From: Bhargavaea beijingensis
GTDB taxonomy: Bacteria; Bacillota; Bacilli; Bacillales_A; Planococcaceae
Direction: 5' to 3'
DNA: 64,000 nucleotides
Assembly: GCF_900101985.1 (NCBI RefSeq)
Contig: NZ_FNAR01000008.1
Coordinates: forward strand, 1-64,000
Below are positions 6,843 to 13,144 of the stretch, piece by piece (within the stretch, counting starts at the first letter, position 1; each line of letters opens with the position of its first letter). The notes below the pieces were generated by a model. It did not search any database. It was not told the origin of the DNA and was given only the letters and a program-made list of their open reading frames with translations. The position numbers and the translations under genes were made by a program.

Positions 6843-6871
6843 ATTGTGAAGACGTCCTCGGAGTCTGTCAA
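6843..6871 (-). promoter_or_regulatory. Sigma-A type promoter of niaR
   Basis: On the minus strand TTGACA (6871-6866) and CACAAT (6848-6843) are spaced by exactly 17 bp, about 50 bp before the niaR start. An operator may overlap but I cannot define one. Confidence 0.65.
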
Positions 6872-6900
6872 AGTTTCAGTGTCATCGCCCAGCGCGGGGT

Positions 6901-6909
6901 CATACGCTA
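6901..6909 (+). promoter_or_regulatory. Possible sigma-E/sigma-K -10 element of safA
   Basis: CATACGCTA matches the -10 consensus of late mother-cell sigma factors (CATA followed by a spaced TA). It would place the transcript start about 15 bp before the safA start codon, agreeing with mother-cell expression of coat genes. The -35 region is not clear. Confidence 0.45.
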
Positions 6910-6932
6910 TACCGATGGAAGGGGGAGAAGCA

Positions 6933-7961
6933 ATGCACGTGCACATTGTGCAGAAAGGGGATACCCTCTGGAAAATCTCCAGGCAGTACGGGGTTCCCTT
7001 TGAAGAAGTCAAACGGCTCAACGCCCATCTGGCAAATCCGGACTATATCGTGCCGGGGATGAAGATCTTCCTGCCGGATCATGCAAAGAAGGGGAAAGGC
7101 AAGCCGCCCGCCGAACATCCGTATAAAGACGGACGGCCGAAAAAACCGGTGAAAGAAAAACAGGAAATGGAATCGTCGGAGCTGACTCCGGTTCCGCCAC
7201 CACCGCCGCCGATGGAAAAGCCGGCACCGCCAAAGCCGGCACCGCCAAAGCCGGCACCGCCAAAGCCGGCACCGTTGCCGGTTCCGCCACCACCGCCGAT
7301 GGAAGAAGAGTCGCCGATGGCACCGCCACCGGTCATGCCGGAAATGGAGATGCCCCCGATGCCTCATCCATGTCCACCAGAGAAGGAGGCGGCCATCCCG
7401 ATGATGCCGATGCCGTTCTGTTGTATGCCGGTGTTTGATATGAGCTGCATGTGCGGCCATATGCCGTACCATCACTACCCTCAAATGATGCACCCTTATC
7501 CTCAGATGCCGATGCAGCCATACCCAGAAGCACATCCGTATCCGGCCATGCCGCAAATGCCGGCAGCACCGGGCTACACGCTGCCTGTTGCGGAGGGGAT
7601 GCCGGAATACGCCATGCCGGCTGAGCAAGAATCGCCGGATCGTGGTTGGAAAATGAGCGAATCGAGTTCTTATTCCTCTTCGCTGGACGTGTATATGGGC
7701 AATCGTCACGAACAGGAGTCACCGATGGCTGACGACCTCCATGTGCCTCAGGCCCCGATGCACATGTATCCGGCAGAGTCTCCTGGCGGCTGCGGATGTG
7801 GCGATGGGCCGTCCGTGCCGTACCCCGTCCAGGCCGCCGCGTGGCCTTACTGGCCGCAGCCGGGCTTCCAGCCTTATCCGGGCCACGGCCACCATCATGG
7901 CCATCACCAAGGGCAATGCTGCCATGTATGCGGATCTCCGTTCGGATACGGCGGCTACTGA
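6933..7961 (+). CDS. safA: SafA-like LysM spore coat assembly protein
   Basis: This 342-residue protein has one LysM peptidoglycan-binding domain at residues 2-47 (VQKGDTLWKISRQYGVP, IVPGMKIFLP). A lysine/proline-rich linker follows with three tandem PPKPA repeats, then a long Pro/Met/Tyr-rich tail ending in a His/Cys-rich segment (HGHHHGHHQGQCCHVC). SafA directs the inner spore coat onto the cortex surface. The ATG at 6933 is chosen because GAAGGGGGAG precedes it and it places LysM at the N-terminus. The tail composition differs strongly from neighbours and contains several Cys pairs that could crosslink or bind metal. Confidence 0.82.
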   Translation: MHVHIVQKGDTLWKISRQYGVPFEEVKRLNAHLANPDYIVPGMKIFLPDHAKKGKGKPPAEHPYKDGRPKKPVKEKQEMESSELTPVPPPPPPMEKPAPPKPAPPKPAPPKPAPLPVPPPPPMEEESPMAPPPVMPEMEMPPMPHPCPPEKEAAIPMMPMPFCCMPVFDMSCMCGHMPYHHYPQMMHPYPQMPMQPYPEAHPYPAMPQMPAAPGYTLPVAEGMPEYAMPAEQESPDRGWKMSESSSYSSSLDVYMGNRHEQESPMADDLHVPQAPMHMYPAESPGGCGCGDGPSVPYPVQAAAWPYWPQPGFQPYPGHGHHHGHHQGQCCHVCGSPFGYGGY

Positions 7962-7967
7962 TCAACC

Positions 7968-8840
7968 ATGACTGCCGGGGGCAACATCCGACAGATTAAA
8001 CAGAATGTATGGAAATGGGACGTCGGCGGCAAACGCTATTCGCTGAAGAAATATGATTCCGTCCAACAGGCACGCAAGGTGAGGCGGATCCATGACGAGC
8101 TCCAGAATATCGGGTTCCCGCACATCCTGCCGATCATCGGTTCGGCGGATGAACGGGCGGTCATCCAGCCGTGGCTAGACCGTGCCAGACCCGCCGACTA
8201 TTCGACGAGGGAAGGGCGGGAGCGGACACTTTCAGTACTCAGCCTGCTCCATGAGACTTCGGGCCACGTGAGTTGGGAAAGTACCGGTGTGCTTTACAGG
8301 TATCCGCTCATCGCAAAATGGGAAGACCGGCTTGAAAAGTTCCGCAGCCAGAAAAAGAAGCTGGTGCAGCTGATGGGAAGCCAGCACTACGGTGCCATCG
8401 TCTATCATTCCGAGCAAGCGCTCCGGACGATCCGGAAAACATATGATCCCGAGGAACACTGCACACTACTGCATGGAGACGTCGTTCATCATAATTTTCT
8501 GAAGGGCCCGGATGGCAAATACGTGATGATCGATTTTGACCTGGCTTGCATCGGTCCGTCCGGCACGGAGACCGCCCTGTGGATCCACCGCGTCCTGTCG
8601 CATGTCGACTTTAACCTGGATTACCTGTGCGGCGAGCAGCCAGGACTCGCTTCGCTTTCCGCGTCGTCTTTCAATCTGCTTCTTTATCCGAATGAATTGC
8701 TGAGGGAATGGCTGTACTTGCTGTCCCTTGACGATGACAAACAGAAAATCATGAAAGTGAAGCTGGACCGGTTCACGGATAAAGCGATGTCCGCCTGGAT
8801 TCCGCTGTGCTATCAAGTATCGAAACGTGCGAACCATTGA
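7968..8840 (+). CDS. CotS/YsxE-family spore coat kinase-like protein
   Basis: This 290-residue protein has an aminoglycoside-phosphotransferase/choline-kinase fold: HGDVVHHN at residues 169-176 (catalytic-loop type) and IDFD at 188-191 (metal-binding type). Spore coat proteins CotS, CotI, YutH and YsxE belong to this family and depend on inner-coat or SpoVID/SafA-type scaffolds. It lies 6 bp after safA, so the pair is probably one mother-cell operon. The start has only a weak ribosome site, which suggests coupling to safA translation. Which coat kinase-like paralogue it corresponds to cannot be told from sequence alone. Confidence 0.8.
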   Translation: MTAGGNIRQIKQNVWKWDVGGKRYSLKKYDSVQQARKVRRIHDELQNIGFPHILPIIGSADERAVIQPWLDRARPADYSTREGRERTLSVLSLLHETSGHVSWESTGVLYRYPLIAKWEDRLEKFRSQKKKLVQLMGSQHYGAIVYHSEQALRTIRKTYDPEEHCTLLHGDVVHHNFLKGPDGKYVMIDFDLACIGPSGTETALWIHRVLSHVDFNLDYLCGEQPGLASLSASSFNLLLYPNELLREWLYLLSLDDDKQKIMKVKLDRFTDKAMSAWIPLCYQVSKRANH

Positions 8841-8850
8841 TTGTTTCTTG

Positions 8851-8894
8851 CCCCGGATCTCTCAAAGCCAAGAGAGATCCGGGGTACTTTTTTT
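8851..8894 (+). terminator. Terminator after the CotS-family gene
   Basis: A perfect 13-bp stem (8851-8863 with 8872-8884), an 8-nt loop and a run of seven T. It marks the end of the conserved chromosome before the island. Confidence 0.95.
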
Positions 8895-8936
8895 GATGGT
8901 TAAAAACTATACAATTGGGAGGGTTCGGAGGAGGAC

Positions 8937-8954
8937 CTCCCCCAAAACCTCCCC
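8937..8954. repeat. Candidate left attachment site
   Basis: CTCCCCCAAAACCTCCCC occurs here and again at 11304-11321, on both sides of the island. Here it forms the right arm of an imperfect inverted repeat reaching back to about 8912, centred on GGAGGACCTCC. It lies 3 bp from the integrase stop codon. Confidence 0.65.
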
Positions 8955-8957
8955 AAT

Positions 8958-9884
8958 TCATAGATTAAGGGCGTTCGCGAAGAGGGTAACCGACTCAACT
9001 TTGAGGTCATCAATGGCGTATCCATAGACCTTCATGACCATATCCGCAGTATTGCCCAATCGTTCGGCGACATCGTGGACAGGCAGTCCCTGAGACAGCA
9101 GCAGAGCAGCATGGGAATGGCGCAGGGCGTGCGGAGTGATCTTCGGTATGTCCAAGTCGTTCCGCCTGATAAAACACCTCAGATAGTCGCGTACGGCGCT
9201 ATATGTGATGGCCGTTCCTCGACTGGATATAAACGCGAAATCTTTTTCAGAGTGTCTGATTCCATGTCGCAGCTTTTGGGCTTTCGTCCAGGTCTTATAG
9301 GACATCAGCATGTCAATTACTTGCTGGTCAATCAGCACGGTCCGGTAGCTGTTAAGTGTCTTGGGTTCTCGTATGCCCCTGGCATCGCGTGTTCGAAGGA
9401 CAGTTACTGTTTTGTTCTGCGGATCGATCTCTTCCCAGGTCAGTCCTAAGACTTCACCAACACGAAGACCGGTGTATGCCAGCAGATGGAGAATGACATT
9501 ATGAGTCGGCATTGCTTTTTCCTTTACCGCCGACAGTAAGACATTCAGTTGCTTGGCAGTCAAGAAGGGAGGGTCATTCTTTCCGGTCTCCACCGACATA
9601 CCGCTGAATCGGTTTCTGGTGATGTATTCGTCCTGGACGGCTGCATTGACGGCAATCATGAACGTCTGATGGTAGAGGTTCACCGTTCTTGGCTTTAACT
9701 TCTGGAGCATGACATTGATAAATTCCCGCTCATACGTGGTCCGGTCGAGGGTTGCCAGCTTGTACCGGCCGATCAGCGGCTTGACGTAATTTGTCATAAT
9801 CCCTTTCCGGTGATCCCTCGTAGGTTTTTTCCATTTCCCTGACTTTGTTTCAAACCAGATGTCAATCCATTCACTTACCGTCAT
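8958..9884 (-). CDS. Tyrosine site-specific integrase, N-terminally truncated
   Basis: This 308-residue phage/ICE-type integrase has a core-binding domain (about 1-105) and catalytic domain (about 108-308). Visible active-site residues are Arg141 (TGLRVGEVLGL), Lys175, His252-Arg255 (HALRHSHAALLL) and the Tyr287 nucleophile (KVYGYA); the second His position is Asn278. Relatives are usually about 370-390 residues with a DNA-arm-binding domain before the core-binding domain. That domain is missing: the frame continues about 15 codons upstream of the ATG as integrase-like KRIENSN, then runs into a stop inside unrelated AT-rich DNA. The protein is probably defective or altered in site recognition. 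Confidence 0.88.
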   Translation of the reverse strand: MTVSEWIDIWFETKSGKWKKPTRDHRKGIMTNYVKPLIGRYKLATLDRTTYEREFINVMLQKLKPRTVNLYHQTFMIAVNAAVQDEYITRNRFSGMSVETGKNDPPFLTAKQLNVLLSAVKEKAMPTHNVILHLLAYTGLRVGEVLGLTWEEIDPQNKTVTVLRTRDARGIREPKTLNSYRTVLIDQQVIDMLMSYKTWTKAQKLRHGIRHSEKDFAFISSRGTAITYSAVRDYLRCFIRRNDLDIPKITPHALRHSHAALLLSQGLPVHDVAERLGNTADMVMKVYGYAIDDLKVESVTLFANALNL

Positions 9885-9919
9885 GTTTGAATTCTCAATC
9901 CGTTTTACTTTTAGTAGTA

Positions 9920-10588
9920 ATGATTTTGGCTATGTTCAGTTTAAATTTAACGCCTGCTGCGAACGTTACTGCGCAAGGTGATAGTAGTCAAGATATTGTT
10001 GTAGTTACAGGTGATGAGGCTGAGGAGTTTGTAAATGCAACGTCACATGCTGTGGAGAATGGTGATATTGAGAATATAGCTCCTGTATCTGCATTTGATT
10101 TAGAGGCGTCGACTGTATACACTGTCGGGGGAGGAGTTACGGTTGTTACGGTTCCTTTACATGGGGATTATAGTATTCCTAGTAACATAACTGTATTCTT
10201 CGATGAGGATAATACTGTATTACAGACAAATGAAATGTTAGTGACCAAAAACGAGATAGAAAACTTCCAAGTTGAAACGTATCTGGACGGATCGCTTGTT
10301 AAATCTGAGGACACTGGGATCTCCTATATCACAGATGAAGAAATGCTTGCAGAAAAGCCGGTTGAATCTGAAATTCAGCCAATGGGTGTAGGTGCAGTGG
10401 CAGCTTGTCTTGCAGCAGTGCTTGGTATTGGTGGTACGGCTGCTTACATTATTGCTGTTGCATGCGGCGGGTCGTGTGCAACACCGACACCAGTGACTGC
10501 TACGATATGTGCTGCATGTATTGGTGCATATGCAGTGATTGGTGGTGGTGCTATCGGTGGAGCTGTAGCTTGCTTTAATAACTTGTAA
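9920..10588 (+). CDS. Secreted bacteriocin-like precursor with Cys-rich C-terminus, 5' end probably lost
   Basis: The frame from ATG 9920 gives 222 residues but the hydrophobic leader LLLVVMILAMFSLNL begins upstream of it, so the true N-terminus appears lost at the junction with the integrase. The leader ends near ANVTAQG, a plausible signal-peptidase site. A soluble, acidic middle of about 135 residues follows, then QPMG and a hydrophobic, Gly/Ala-rich final segment of 67 residues with six Cys (AACLAAV, ACGGSC, ICAAC, ACFNNL). Signal peptide, spacer and Cys-rich hydrophobic C-terminal peptide is the layout of halocin C8-type precursors. I recognise no exact family; geobacillin-type proteins are another possibility. 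No ribosome site is seen at 9920. Codon use is AT-rich compared with neighbours. Confidence 0.6.
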   Translation: MILAMFSLNLTPAANVTAQGDSSQDIVVVTGDEAEEFVNATSHAVENGDIENIAPVSAFDLEASTVYTVGGGVTVVTVPLHGDYSIPSNITVFFDEDNTVLQTNEMLVTKNEIENFQVETYLDGSLVKSEDTGISYITDEEMLAEKPVESEIQPMGVGAVAACLAAVLGIGGTAAYIIAVACGGSCATPTPVTATICAACIGAYAVIGGGAIGGAVACFNNL

Positions 10589-10608
10589 GTATTGGTGAGG
10601 TGGTTTAA

Positions 10609-10815
10609 ATGAACAAGGTATTGGCAATCTCAATTTTAGGAACCGGTTTAACTGGTGCCATTTTAATCATCTCTGTCGCATTGTTATTTGAATCTCCAAT
10701 AGGGAATACGTTGAAGATGGTTACCGCTGCTTCAGCAGTAGCTTTTGTTATATTCGCTGTGTCGGCTGTAGTATTTCGACGAAGATTAGATGAACAAAGA
10801 GATAACATGATTTAA
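10609..10815 (+). CDS. Two-helix membrane protein, candidate immunity protein
   Basis: This 68-residue protein has two membrane segments (about 4-27 and 36-58) and a short charged tail (RRRLDEQRDN). The ATG at 10609 has GTGAGGTGG about 7 bp upstream. It begins 20 bp after the bacteriocin-like gene and shares its AT-rich composition, so the two are probably co-transcribed and a terminator follows. Small two-helix membrane proteins next to bacteriocin genes often protect the producer; that role here is inference, as I recognise no family. Confidence 0.65.
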   Translation: MNKVLAISILGTGLTGAILIISVALLFESPIGNTLKMVTAASAVAFVIFAVSAVVFRRRLDEQRDNMI

Positions 10816-10829
10816 ATCTTGGTCGGTAC

Positions 10830-10868
10830 AAAGGAGTAGATAAATTTATCTGCTCCTTTAGTTTATTT
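10830..10868 (+). terminator. Terminator after the candidate immunity gene
   Basis: A 13-bp stem with one wobble or mismatch (10830-10842 with 10847-10859), a 4-nt loop, then AGTTTATTTTT. It closes the two-gene cargo operon. Confidence 0.85.
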
Positions 10869-10961
10869 TTCATGAATAATGAGTGTGGATACACACCGGA
10901 TATAGGATGTTGTTAAGTAATAGAAAAACAGCACACTGAATTTTATAATTCCGTTTGAACT

Positions 10962-11005
10962 GACCCCCGAACTATAGGCACTTCAAAAAGTCCTGGTTCG
11001 GGGTC
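10962..11005. repeat. Inverted repeat, possible insertion-sequence end
   Basis: GACCCCCGAAC (10962-10972) and GTTCGGGGTC (10996-11005) are inverted copies around a 23-bp loop. The left arm is preceded by TTGAAC, and TGAACTGACCCCC resembles terminal sequences of IS3-family elements. Together with the transposase-like relic downstream it may mark a decayed insertion sequence. Confidence 0.4.
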
Positions 11006-11146
11006 TTTGCGTTGTCAAAAACCCCGCTGTATTGACCACAAAGATAAGCAGAGAAATTTATATGAGCCGCCACCCCATAAGTGAACCATTCGCCGACTGA
11101 CCGACGACAACCCGAATGTTTTTATGTGACGGATAAGTACATCTAA

Positions 11147-11218
11147 TATGCTCATGAATTTAAGCTGAAGGCGTTGATGGACTGTCAGGAAGGGAAGACG
11201 TCTTATGCAATCTTTTGA
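11147..11218 (+). pseudogene. Relic of an IS3-family OrfA transposase N-terminus
   Basis: The frame from 11147 reads YAHEFKLKALMDCQEGK and continues for six codons to a TGA at 11216. This resembles the first helix-turn-helix of IS3-family OrfA (Y-x-x-EFKL-x-V-x-x-Y-x-EG-K-S-Y). There is no start codon or continuation, so it can only be a fragment. Nothing else is recognised between 10870 and 11300. Confidence 0.45.
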
Positions 11219-11303
11219 GGGGGTTAGGTAGTTGGAATTAAAACCCGCCGTAACGAAGTACGACGATCATCGTCTGTCCACTGATTTATAACGTCCCCCA
11301 GAG

Positions 11304-11321
11304 CTCCCCCAAAACCTCCCC
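11304..11321. repeat. Candidate right attachment site
   Basis: Second copy of CTCCCCCAAAACCTCCCC. The last bases overlap a short hairpin, CTCCCCC (11316-11322) with GGGGGAG (11331-11337). It lies about 120 bp before the ruvA promoter region. Confidence 0.65.
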
Positions 11322-11439
11322 CAGATGCTTGGGGGAGAATACATTCTTTTGGAAGGCCGGCCGGCAGTCCAATCCTTATAAAACGCGGTCAACGTCTTAC
11401 GTCTCTCAAAACATCGTCCCGGAACGCGGTCGGACTATA

Positions 11440-11448
11440 TGCTATAAT
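11440..11448 (+). promoter_or_regulatory. Extended -10 promoter of ruvA
   Basis: TGCTATAAT is an extended -10 element 30 bp before the ruvA start. No clear -35 is needed for this class. It lies outside the island, so ruvAB keep their own promoter despite the insertion. Confidence 0.6.
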
Positions 11449-11478
11449 CTACTCAATGTGACAGAGGGGGAACATGGT

Positions 11479-12084
11479 TTGTACGATTACATAAAAGGGC
11501 GCATCACCCGGGTGACGCCCGAGTATATCACGGTTGAGCAGGGCGGCATCGGCTATCAGGTGATCACGCCCAATCCGTATGCCTTCCATGCGGATGAGGA
11601 AAAGCAGGTTTTTACGCATCTCCATGTCAGGGAAGACGTGATGCAGCTGATTGGTTTCCAGGCGCCGGAGCAGCGGGAATTGTTCAGGAAACTGATCACC
11701 GTCTCCGGCATCGGGCCGAAAGGTGCGCTGGCGATCTTGGCCGGCGGGATGACCGCGCAGGTTGTGGCGGCCATCGAGGCGGAAGATGAAAAATTCCTCG
11801 TGAAATTCCCGGGTGTCGGCAAAAAGACCGCCCGTCAGATCATTCTCGATCTGAAAGGGAAGCTTGACGGCGTGACCGATGAAGTCGTCTTCATGATGGA
11901 AAACGAACCGGAGCCGGCTTTGGGTTCAAATCACGACCTTGACGAAGCGATGCTTGCGCTCACCGCACTCGGCTATTCGGAGCGGGAGCTCGGCAAGATC
12001 CGGCAGAAACTCGAAAACGAAACGCTTGAAAATACGGAAGCTTACATGAAGCGGGCGCTCGCGCTTTTGCTTAAGCAGGGTTAA
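11479..12084 (+). CDS. ruvA: Holliday junction DNA helicase subunit RuvA
   Basis: This 201-residue protein starts LYDYIKGRIT with a TTG codon, preceded by AGAGGGGGAA; the alignment to other RuvA N-termini (short residue run, then KG-I) and the ribosome site fix this start. Domain I is an OB fold, domain II has the helix-hairpin-helix motifs (VSGIGPKGALAIL and FPGVGKKTARQIILDLK), and domain III (about 150-201) contacts RuvB. RuvA tetramers hold the four-way junction while RuvB drives branch migration. Confidence 0.96.
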   Translation: MYDYIKGRITRVTPEYITVEQGGIGYQVITPNPYAFHADEEKQVFTHLHVREDVMQLIGFQAPEQRELFRKLITVSGIGPKGALAILAGGMTAQVVAAIEAEDEKFLVKFPGVGKKTARQIILDLKGKLDGVTDEVVFMMENEPEPALGSNHDLDEAMLALTALGYSERELGKIRQKLENETLENTEAYMKRALALLLKQG

Positions 12085-12128
12085 ATGGTGAACCGCTTTG
12101 AACAACCTGATGGAAAGGGGGGGCACTG

Positions 12129-13144
12129 ATGGAAGAACGGGTCATTTCCGGTGAAGCTTCGGCATTTGACGACGGCTTTGAGCAGTCGCTGCGGCCTCAG
12201 CGGCTCGGACAGTACATCGGCCAGGAGCGGGTCAAGCATAATCTCGGCATTTTCATCGAAGCGGCCAAGCAGCGGGAGGAAAGCCTGGACCATGTGCTTC
12301 TCTATGGGCCGCCGGGTCTCGGCAAGACGACACTCGCCTCGGTCATCGCAAATGAGATGGGTGTCAATTTCCGGACGACGAGCGGGCCGGCAATCGAACG
12401 TCCCGGGGACTTGGCAGCCATCGTCAGCTCACTGGAACCGGGAGATGTGCTGTTCATCGACGAAATCCACCGTCTGAGCCGTGCGGTCGAAGAAGTGCTT
12501 TATCCGGCGATGGAGGACTTTTGCCTCGATATCGTCGTCGGCAAGGGGCCGGAGGCCAGATCGATCCGATTTGATCTGCCTCCGTTCACACTGATCGGAG
12601 CGACCACGAGGGCCGGGGCTTTATCGGCACCGCTCCGGGACCGGTTCGGCGTGCCGCTCCGGCTCGACTACTATGACCGGGAAGCACTGGCGGAGATCGT
12701 GGTCCGGAGCGCCGACATTTTCGGCGCACCCATCACCCGGGAGGCGGCGGAGGAGATGGCAATGCGTTCACGAGGAACGCCGCGGATCGCCAACCGGCTG
12801 CTCCGGCGCGTCCGGGACTTTGCACAAGTGCGCGGCAACGGGCAGATCACGCTCCCGACCGCGCAGGAAGCCCTGGAGCTGCTTCAGGTCGACTCACACG
12901 GACTGGACAGCATTGATCACAAGCTTCTCCTCTCCATGATCGAACGGTTCAGGGGCGGGCCGGTCGGCCTTGATACGATCGCCGCAAGCATCGGCGAAGA
13001 ATCGGCAACGATCGAAGATGTTTACGAACCTTATCTGCTGCAGGCCGGATTCCTGCAGCGCACACCACGCGGGCGTGTGGTCACACCGCACGCCTATGAA
13101 CATTTCGGCATGGACATGCCGGACGACGGAAGAAGGAACCAACC

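Follow-up and report, generated by a model that had tools for sequence, protein, structure and literature searches.

What kind of protein does the open reading frame at 9920-10588 of the window specify, and can this copy still be expressed? The window, i.e. the whole 64,000-nucleotide stretch of Bhargavaea beijingensis DNA that we analysed, had been described in an earlier note as holding at this place a gene for a secreted, bacteriocin-like precursor on a small mobile island (features in Table 1).

Table 1. Features of the island and of the precursor locus, in window coordinates
Feature	Position	Strand	Remarks
Mobile island, about 2.4 kb	8937..11321		between CotS/APH-like kinase gene and ruvA
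Left 18-bp direct repeat, att-like	8937..8954	+	CTCCCCCAAAACCTCCCC
Tyrosine integrase without N-terminal domain	8958..9884	-	PF00589 E 6.6e-24; homology continues to about 9908
Junction fusing two 5'-truncated genes head to head	9908..9913		end of integrase homology versus start of precursor DNA homology
Six-Cys precursor gene, 5'-truncated	9920..10588	+	222 aa; remaining ATG at 9920
Acidic spacer domain, residues 20-155 (136 aa)	9977..10384	+	28 D/E and 3 K/R; kept in relatives
Gly/Ala-rich six-Cys module, 67 aa, presumed mature bacteriocin	10385..10585	+	
Two-helix membrane protein, 68 aa, presumed immunity protein	10609..10815	+	ribosome-binding-like site, 6 of 7 positions
Right 18-bp direct repeat, att-like	11304..11321	+	CTCCCCCAAAACCTCCCC

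Anatomy and conservation of the precursor

All three parts that had been claimed were recovered, namely a hydrophobic leader, an acidic middle and a Gly/Ala-rich end with six cysteines. The tail contains no Asp or Glu, no Lys or Arg and 31 Gly or Ala residues besides its six Cys, which include the motifs CGGSC (C-x3-C) and CAAC (C-x2-C). The description as a secreted-type precursor whose C-terminus is a Cys-rich peptide is likewise borne out by this anatomy, the complete leader being seen in relatives. At 43% for the precursor and 38% for the two-helix gene, G+C content lies below the 55% of the whole window.

The precursor is 62-78% identical to its close relatives. In seven pairwise comparisons with relatives, dN/dS was 0.21-0.37 for the precursor and 0.21-0.38 for the two-helix gene; the tail of the precursor taken separately gave 0.14-0.53. 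These values are averages over the whole divergence, from which the timing of the window copy's death cannot be read and in which a recent loss would be invisible. An alignment of 13 members, termed A6 (window included; 18-74% identity to its first row), holds eight columns invariant in 13/13 sequences: six Cys, one Glu and one Gly. Since dN/dS is low and the six Cys are invariant in all aligned members, the reading frame is real and chance is excluded as its origin; absence of the six Cys from homologues, which the earlier note had named as a finding that would tell against it, did not occur. A6 leaves out three sequences whose six to eight Cys are spaced differently. These distant Cys-rich precursors lie at L103 1228-1722, L104 1222-1770 and L108 916-1713 (the latter two on the match strand), and that of L108 is followed by an 86-aa membrane reading frame.

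Structure prediction had likewise been proposed by the earlier note. AlphaFold2 returned four helices for the tail (six rows) at a low-confidence pLDDT of 66, and we claim no fold; the whole precursor (7 rows) reached a pLDDT of 40 and gave no usable model. Foldseek with the tail model yielded 8 matches at E<=10 and none at E<=0.001, and the best hit of the precursor in a PDB sequence search had an E-value of 0.69.

The island and its head-to-head junction

That the locus lies on a small mobile island is supported by the tyrosine integrase gene, the 18-bp direct repeats and the absence of the island from the kinase/ruvA locus in 7/7 same-genus genomes. The repeat, CTCCCCCAAAACCTCCCC, is perfect, occurs in the window at 8937 and 11304 only, and is absent from the loci of the 7 relatives. 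In blastn comparisons of window positions 7900-12200 with the seven same-genus kinase loci, only the kinase and ruvA sides aligned; the aligned ends, about 2.5 kb apart in the window, are separated by 89-130 nt in five relatives, by about 500 nt in L044 and by about 1.2 kb in L042, and no copy of the precursor turned up elsewhere in the seven genomes. In L042 this same junction is occupied by a different insertion, ~1.2 kb long, in which a polysaccharide-deacetylase-like frame can be recognised by eye. The second insertion suggests that the place is a hot spot for integration. On the kinase side, a LysM protein (6846-7961) comes near the SafA/ExsA spore-coat model (64.8 bits versus a cut-off of 67.85) and the CotS/APH-like kinase gene (7968-8840) adjoins the island, which likely sits in a spore-coat gene neighbourhood.

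Inside the island, the alignment of the integrase to its 384-aa counterpart in Psychrobacillus phage Spoks starts at residue 71 of the latter. On the precursor side, the Gracilibacillus and Paenibacillus copies and two further genomes resemble the window DNA from 9913-9914 onward, a position nine to ten codons into the genes of those relatives, and similarity to other Lysinibacillus-type copies starts only at about 9994-9996. Because integrase homology ends at about 9908 and precursor homology begins at 9913-9914, we infer that one junction cut both 5' ends; its exact base is uncertain, as a profile carries the precursor-side similarity to 9896. The leader agrees with the earlier description in having its hydrophobic stretch, but is incomplete, a point which that description missed: the lysine-containing start of close relatives (e.g. 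MSKAKK, MLKAKK) is absent. Whereas seven relatives with an ATG start match the Shine-Dalgarno sequence AGGAGGT at 6-7 of 7 positions, the window does so at 4 of 7 before ATG 9920 and at 2 of 7 before TTG 9845, an in-frame codon which the frame reaches without a stop and which falls inside antisense integrase sequence. With its start, ribosome-binding site and charged leader part lost at the junction, the window precursor is most likely a remnant next to an intact putative immunity gene, and the earlier assumption of an expressible gene is very probably wrong, because the 5' end is missing. What is new here is this damage to the window copy and its fusion to a 5'-truncated integrase gene.

One could instead take the window copy for a complete gene that is expressed from 9920 or from TTG 9845. 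Its frame is indeed open and its cysteines are intact, which could mean translation from some unrecognised start, and its dN/dS relative to other members is low; however, these ratios are blind to recent loss, neither start codon has a Shine-Dalgarno match of the quality seen in relatives, the leader begins without their lysines, and from about 9908 outward the homology is to the integrase, on the opposite strand. We therefore consider expression of a complete gene distinctly improbable and retain the interpretation as a remnant. A sister copy in genome G189 has stops in the precursor frame, yet its 68-aa two-helix reading frame is intact and 65% identical, the picture to be expected if an immunity gene outlived its toxin.

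Distribution of the family and its two-helix partner gene

A contig search with the single window sequence found six loci, in Gracilibacillus boraciitolerans, Lysinibacillus sphaericus 2362 and, four times, in Paenibacillus (two of these in one genome, Paenibacillus sp. PCH8). Among 250 genomes of the same family, 14 match at E<=0.01, the window's own included; seven of these matches cover nearly the full query (six at 65-100% identity, G114 at 30%), and the others are partial, weak or broken. Counting the window's own genome each time, a first profile (A2) matched 13/261 genomes of the order and 2/398 of the phylum, a second (A4) 13/398 Bacilli genomes, and the A6 profile 20/396 Bacilli genomes in 17/146 genera. 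Three of these 20 (L105, L106, L107) match in the leader and spacer only (E 4e-4 to 1e-3) and look like false matches, and G503 contributes a spacer fragment only.

Besides, members are found on the small Bacillus plasmids pFL5 of B. licheniformis, pBP6000 of B. pumilus and plaBV1 of B. velezensis and on plasmids of Arthrobacter agilis (pAAG24-152), Terribacillus (pDMT04), one Streptomyces and one Levilactobacillus brevis, the last with a split precursor; the member frame on the B. subtilis plasmid unnamed2 has no leader. The SPbeta-like phages Goe11, Goe13 and Goe14 came up with a distant member as query, and the window protein matched no phage. Among viral contigs, 30 stretches fitted a pattern and none was a relative. 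Searched against plasmids, the Arthrobacter protein retrieved itself only, and the Streptomyces protein itself and the Terribacillus member. In the open-licence PMC literature we recognised no paper that treats the six-Cys precursor family. The gene for lysinicin OF of Lysinibacillus is not known according to PMC10191383, so this bacteriocin cannot be tied to the family.

The earlier note had also proposed to look in other Bacillales for the precursor together with the two-helix gene, and the pair was found there; a homologue of the two-helix gene comes after the precursor in 11/11 close members. An all-against-all comparison of 14 neighbourhoods revealed that close copies across genera share only these two genes; more is shared by the near-identical genomes L023/L025 and by the Paenibacillus copies among themselves. 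The latter (L003 7509-9199, L005 7508-9202, L004 7609-9096 and L006) have longer flanks in common with one another than with other genera, the excess reaching about 450 nt on the upstream and 280 nt on the downstream side, and a short upstream leader-like frame that starts near L003 7702 is interrupted by a stop in L003, L004 and L005 and is deleted in L006. We then counted as partner any reading frame that is 45-90 aa long, has two or more hydrophobic stretches and is located at -30 to +200 nt; 167 reading frames with a length of 150 aa or more, taken from 15 of the loci, served as controls. Such a partner follows 23 of the 32 members (11/11 close, 12/21 distant) versus 4 of the 167 controls, i.e. 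the small membrane gene beside the precursor that is a general trait of two-gene toxin-immunity systems is present. Fisher's p was 5e-19 for all and 2e-10 for the distant members, in a set of 32 that includes near-duplicates (L003-L005; L082 and L109) and, among the distant ones, L076 with the same sequence as the Terribacillus plasmid gene; it was 7e-9 for the distant members minus two near-duplicates.

Within -30 to +200 nt, no qualifying reading frame follows the precursor in the remaining nine members (L077, L014, L101, L103, L104, L080, L083, L085, L086). L085 has an 86-aa hydrophobic reading frame upstream of the precursor instead, L086 a thioredoxin gene in the partner position, and L080 a 124-aa membrane reading frame further on. 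In the parts of Goe11 and Goe14 that were read, precursor and partner overlap by 4 nt. The Arthrobacter partner, at L037 6505-6711, is missing from the PLSDB gene table, which is incomplete. Four partners (that of L037, L002, L109 and L085, one close and three distant) matched no Pfam family at E<=0.01, and the two-helix protein found nothing at E<=0.1 on plasmids; the window's own partner frame has sub-threshold matches to membrane transporters (mtlA, 20 bits versus a cut-off of 468).

At three loci, genes for thioredoxin, DsbB or glutaredoxin adjoin the precursor. On pFL5, a thioredoxin gene (PF00085 E 1.3e-13) and a DsbB gene (PF02600 E 1.3e-14) lie just upstream, the split precursor of the L. 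brevis plasmid has a thioredoxin-family gene downstream of it, and G834 has a glutaredoxin-like reading frame (PF00462 E 5.1e-12) about 105 nt upstream. Since none of 24 other neighbourhoods yielded a relative (E<=0.01) of the thioredoxin and DsbB proteins of pFL5 and L. brevis, dedicated disulfide enzymes are the exception. Near the L077/L133 precursor we observed a subtilase-like reading frame (L133 4550-5458; motif IAVIDTGI, by eye), whose product could be a maturation protease, and, on the opposite strand, a small membrane protein (L133 5776-6153).

Proposed function, alternatives and known systems

Taken together, we consider it probable that the family is a two-gene bacteriocin system, composed of a secreted six-Cys precursor and a two-helix immunity protein, of which the window holds a beheaded remnant. 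The assignment of the six-Cys tail as a bacteriocin is well supported, while killing itself is what we infer from sequence. The precursor would be exported by the Sec route, which we propose because no transporter gene is conserved beside it, and the acidic spacer would probably hold the hydrophobic tail soluble and inactive. Outside the cell, disulfides would staple the helical six-Cys tail and an extracellular protease would release it, after which the uncharged helical peptide could attack the membranes of competing Gram-positive bacteria, with the two-helix protein from the next gene presumably shielding the producer within its own membrane. Islands, small plasmids and phages may spread the pair horizontally.

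Two other readings of the pair have to be weighed. The six-Cys end might never be released and instead anchor a secreted or membrane-inserted surface protein, with the two-helix protein as its membrane partner or chaperone. Its hydrophobicity, the helices of the low-confidence model and the presence on the Arthrobacter plasmid of a gene for a 'TasA family protein' ~2 kb and one for signal peptidase I ~3 kb downstream are compatible with such a role; six invariant Cys and the lack of any charged residue would be unusual for a plain anchor, though, and plasmids, phages and unrelated neighbourhoods carry the pair by itself; no surface-protein family reached cut-off. We thus hold an anchor to be unlikely. 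Carriage on plasmids, SPbeta-like phages and an island, together with a small membrane partner, would also suit a phage or plasmid maintenance or exclusion module, in which an exported membrane-active toxin is paired with an antitoxin-like membrane partner and does not serve as a weapon. That the pair also occurs at unrelated chromosomal places argues against this, and with its signal peptide and long acidic spacer the precursor looks like an exported proform, so we give a maintenance module little probability. Either way, weapon and maintenance or exclusion are not exclusive, as both roles are described for the sublancin of SPbeta in PMC8270828.

On the bacteriocin interpretation, we lean slightly towards a broader proposal, namely a widespread class of Sec-secreted, six-Cys helical bacteriocins with two-helix immunity proteins of their own and, occasionally, private disulfide-forming enzymes, which would travel as two-gene cassettes on islands, small mobilizable plasmids and SPbeta-like phages through Bacillota and Actinomycetota, without a match in Pfam or NCBIfam. 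Close copies lack neighbouring modification enzymes or a transporter and therefore move as two genes, about 0.9 kb. If the proposal holds, a whole class of antibacterial peptides is hidden in plasmid and phage records as 'hypothetical protein', and phages and small plasmids gain a second kind of weapon besides sublancin. Killing and immunity are directly testable, given the six invariant Cys and the association with the two-helix gene, and the window would offer a view of a cassette in decay, its toxin gene beheaded and its putative immunity gene intact.

How does the family relate to what is known? No Pfam or NCBIfam model reached its cut-off with the window precursor, with the relatives scanned or with the window's two-helix partner. 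The whole protein was thereby rejected as a member of a known non-bacteriocin family in these libraries, and the confident match of this kind that would have spoken against the earlier note was not encountered. The best sub-threshold model for the window is Phage_holin_3_6 (E 0.0015-0.0032); among relatives, we observed NF047613 LIC11625 (L077, E 0.00037; L056, E 0.0018), NF041262 'colicin Z C-terminal domain-related' over the spacer (L083, E 0.0031; L080, E 0.0077) and the SAR2788 putative toxin model NF038340 (L077, E 0.34). The 274-aa protein of G114 (L032 8281-9105), whose C-terminal part is Cys-rich in another pattern and whose gene has, by eye, an HTH-like and a membrane protein gene in front of it, matched no NCBIfam model at cut-off and is possibly another Cys-rich bacteriocin type. 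The family phrog_33667, of unknown function in its library, is matched by 9/13 members at E<=0.1; the best E is 2.4e-71, and L007, which was scanned first, matches only weakly (E 0.068).

The earlier note had considered a distant relation to halocin C8; membership in that family was not supported. TIGR04449 (24-bit cut-off) has no match in the window's genome at E<=10, the window protein has no halocin match in NCBIfam at E<=1, and membership is rejected on these results and on the different Cys spacing. The order of parts (signal peptide, long spacer, C-terminal Cys-rich peptide), as seen in the halocin C8-like proteins L111 and L123, is shared by the six-Cys family, with the complete leader in relatives and not in the window copy; in contrast, these two Bacilli proteins, on which the comparison rests, have no C-x3-C/C-x2-C core. 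A profile-profile comparison gave 54% probability over 41 spacer columns only, outside the Cys part. Halocin C8-like proteins do occur in Bacilli (L111, L112, L113 and L123, from genomes G769, G708 and G696); the TIGR04449 cut-off is exceeded in 3/274 genomes, and the Bacilli form NF040679 matches L111 (E 3.8e-125) and L123 (E 3.4e-121), which are not members of the six-Cys family. Pfam and NCBIfam gave no match to a geobacillin 26-type model at E<=1, so far as these libraries include one.

NCBIfam describes TIGR04450, Gpos_C8_like (cut-off 27 bits, length 240), as a 'putative immunity/bacteriocin fusion bifunctional protein', a label which suggests that architectures of this kind are already classed as bacteriocins by NCBI curators. 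Below the cut-off, three distant members can be aligned with it, and every alignment extends into the C-terminal part of the model: residues 77-221 of L085 to 88-235 of 240 (E 0.051, 13.2 bits), L102 to 202-233 (E 0.31, 10.6 bits) and residues 92-223 of L081 to 110-239 (E 1.8, 8.1 bits). No tested member attained 27 bits, the window protein had no match at E<=1, and in 6 genomes nothing exceeded the cut-off. TIGR04450 may represent the true superfamily of the six-Cys precursors, which differ from it in having a separate two-helix gene for the likely immunity protein.

Sublancin 168 offers another parallel as a phage-borne weapon with disulfide enzymes: its disulfides are made by BdbA/BdbB and its immunity protein is SunI (PMC8270828), and pFL5 pairs the precursor with thioredoxin and DsbB genes. 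Beside close copies across genera no third gene is conserved, and thus no glycosyltransferase or peptidase transporter of the sublancin type. The six-Cys precursor is also much longer than that of sublancin. No NCBIfam match to the SdpC family was obtained at E<=1. Nonetheless, the SdpC/SdpI system works alike, in that a Sec-secreted precursor with a hydrophobic C-terminal toxin is accompanied by a membrane immunity protein; the SdpC toxin has two Cys, whereas the tail of the present family has six.
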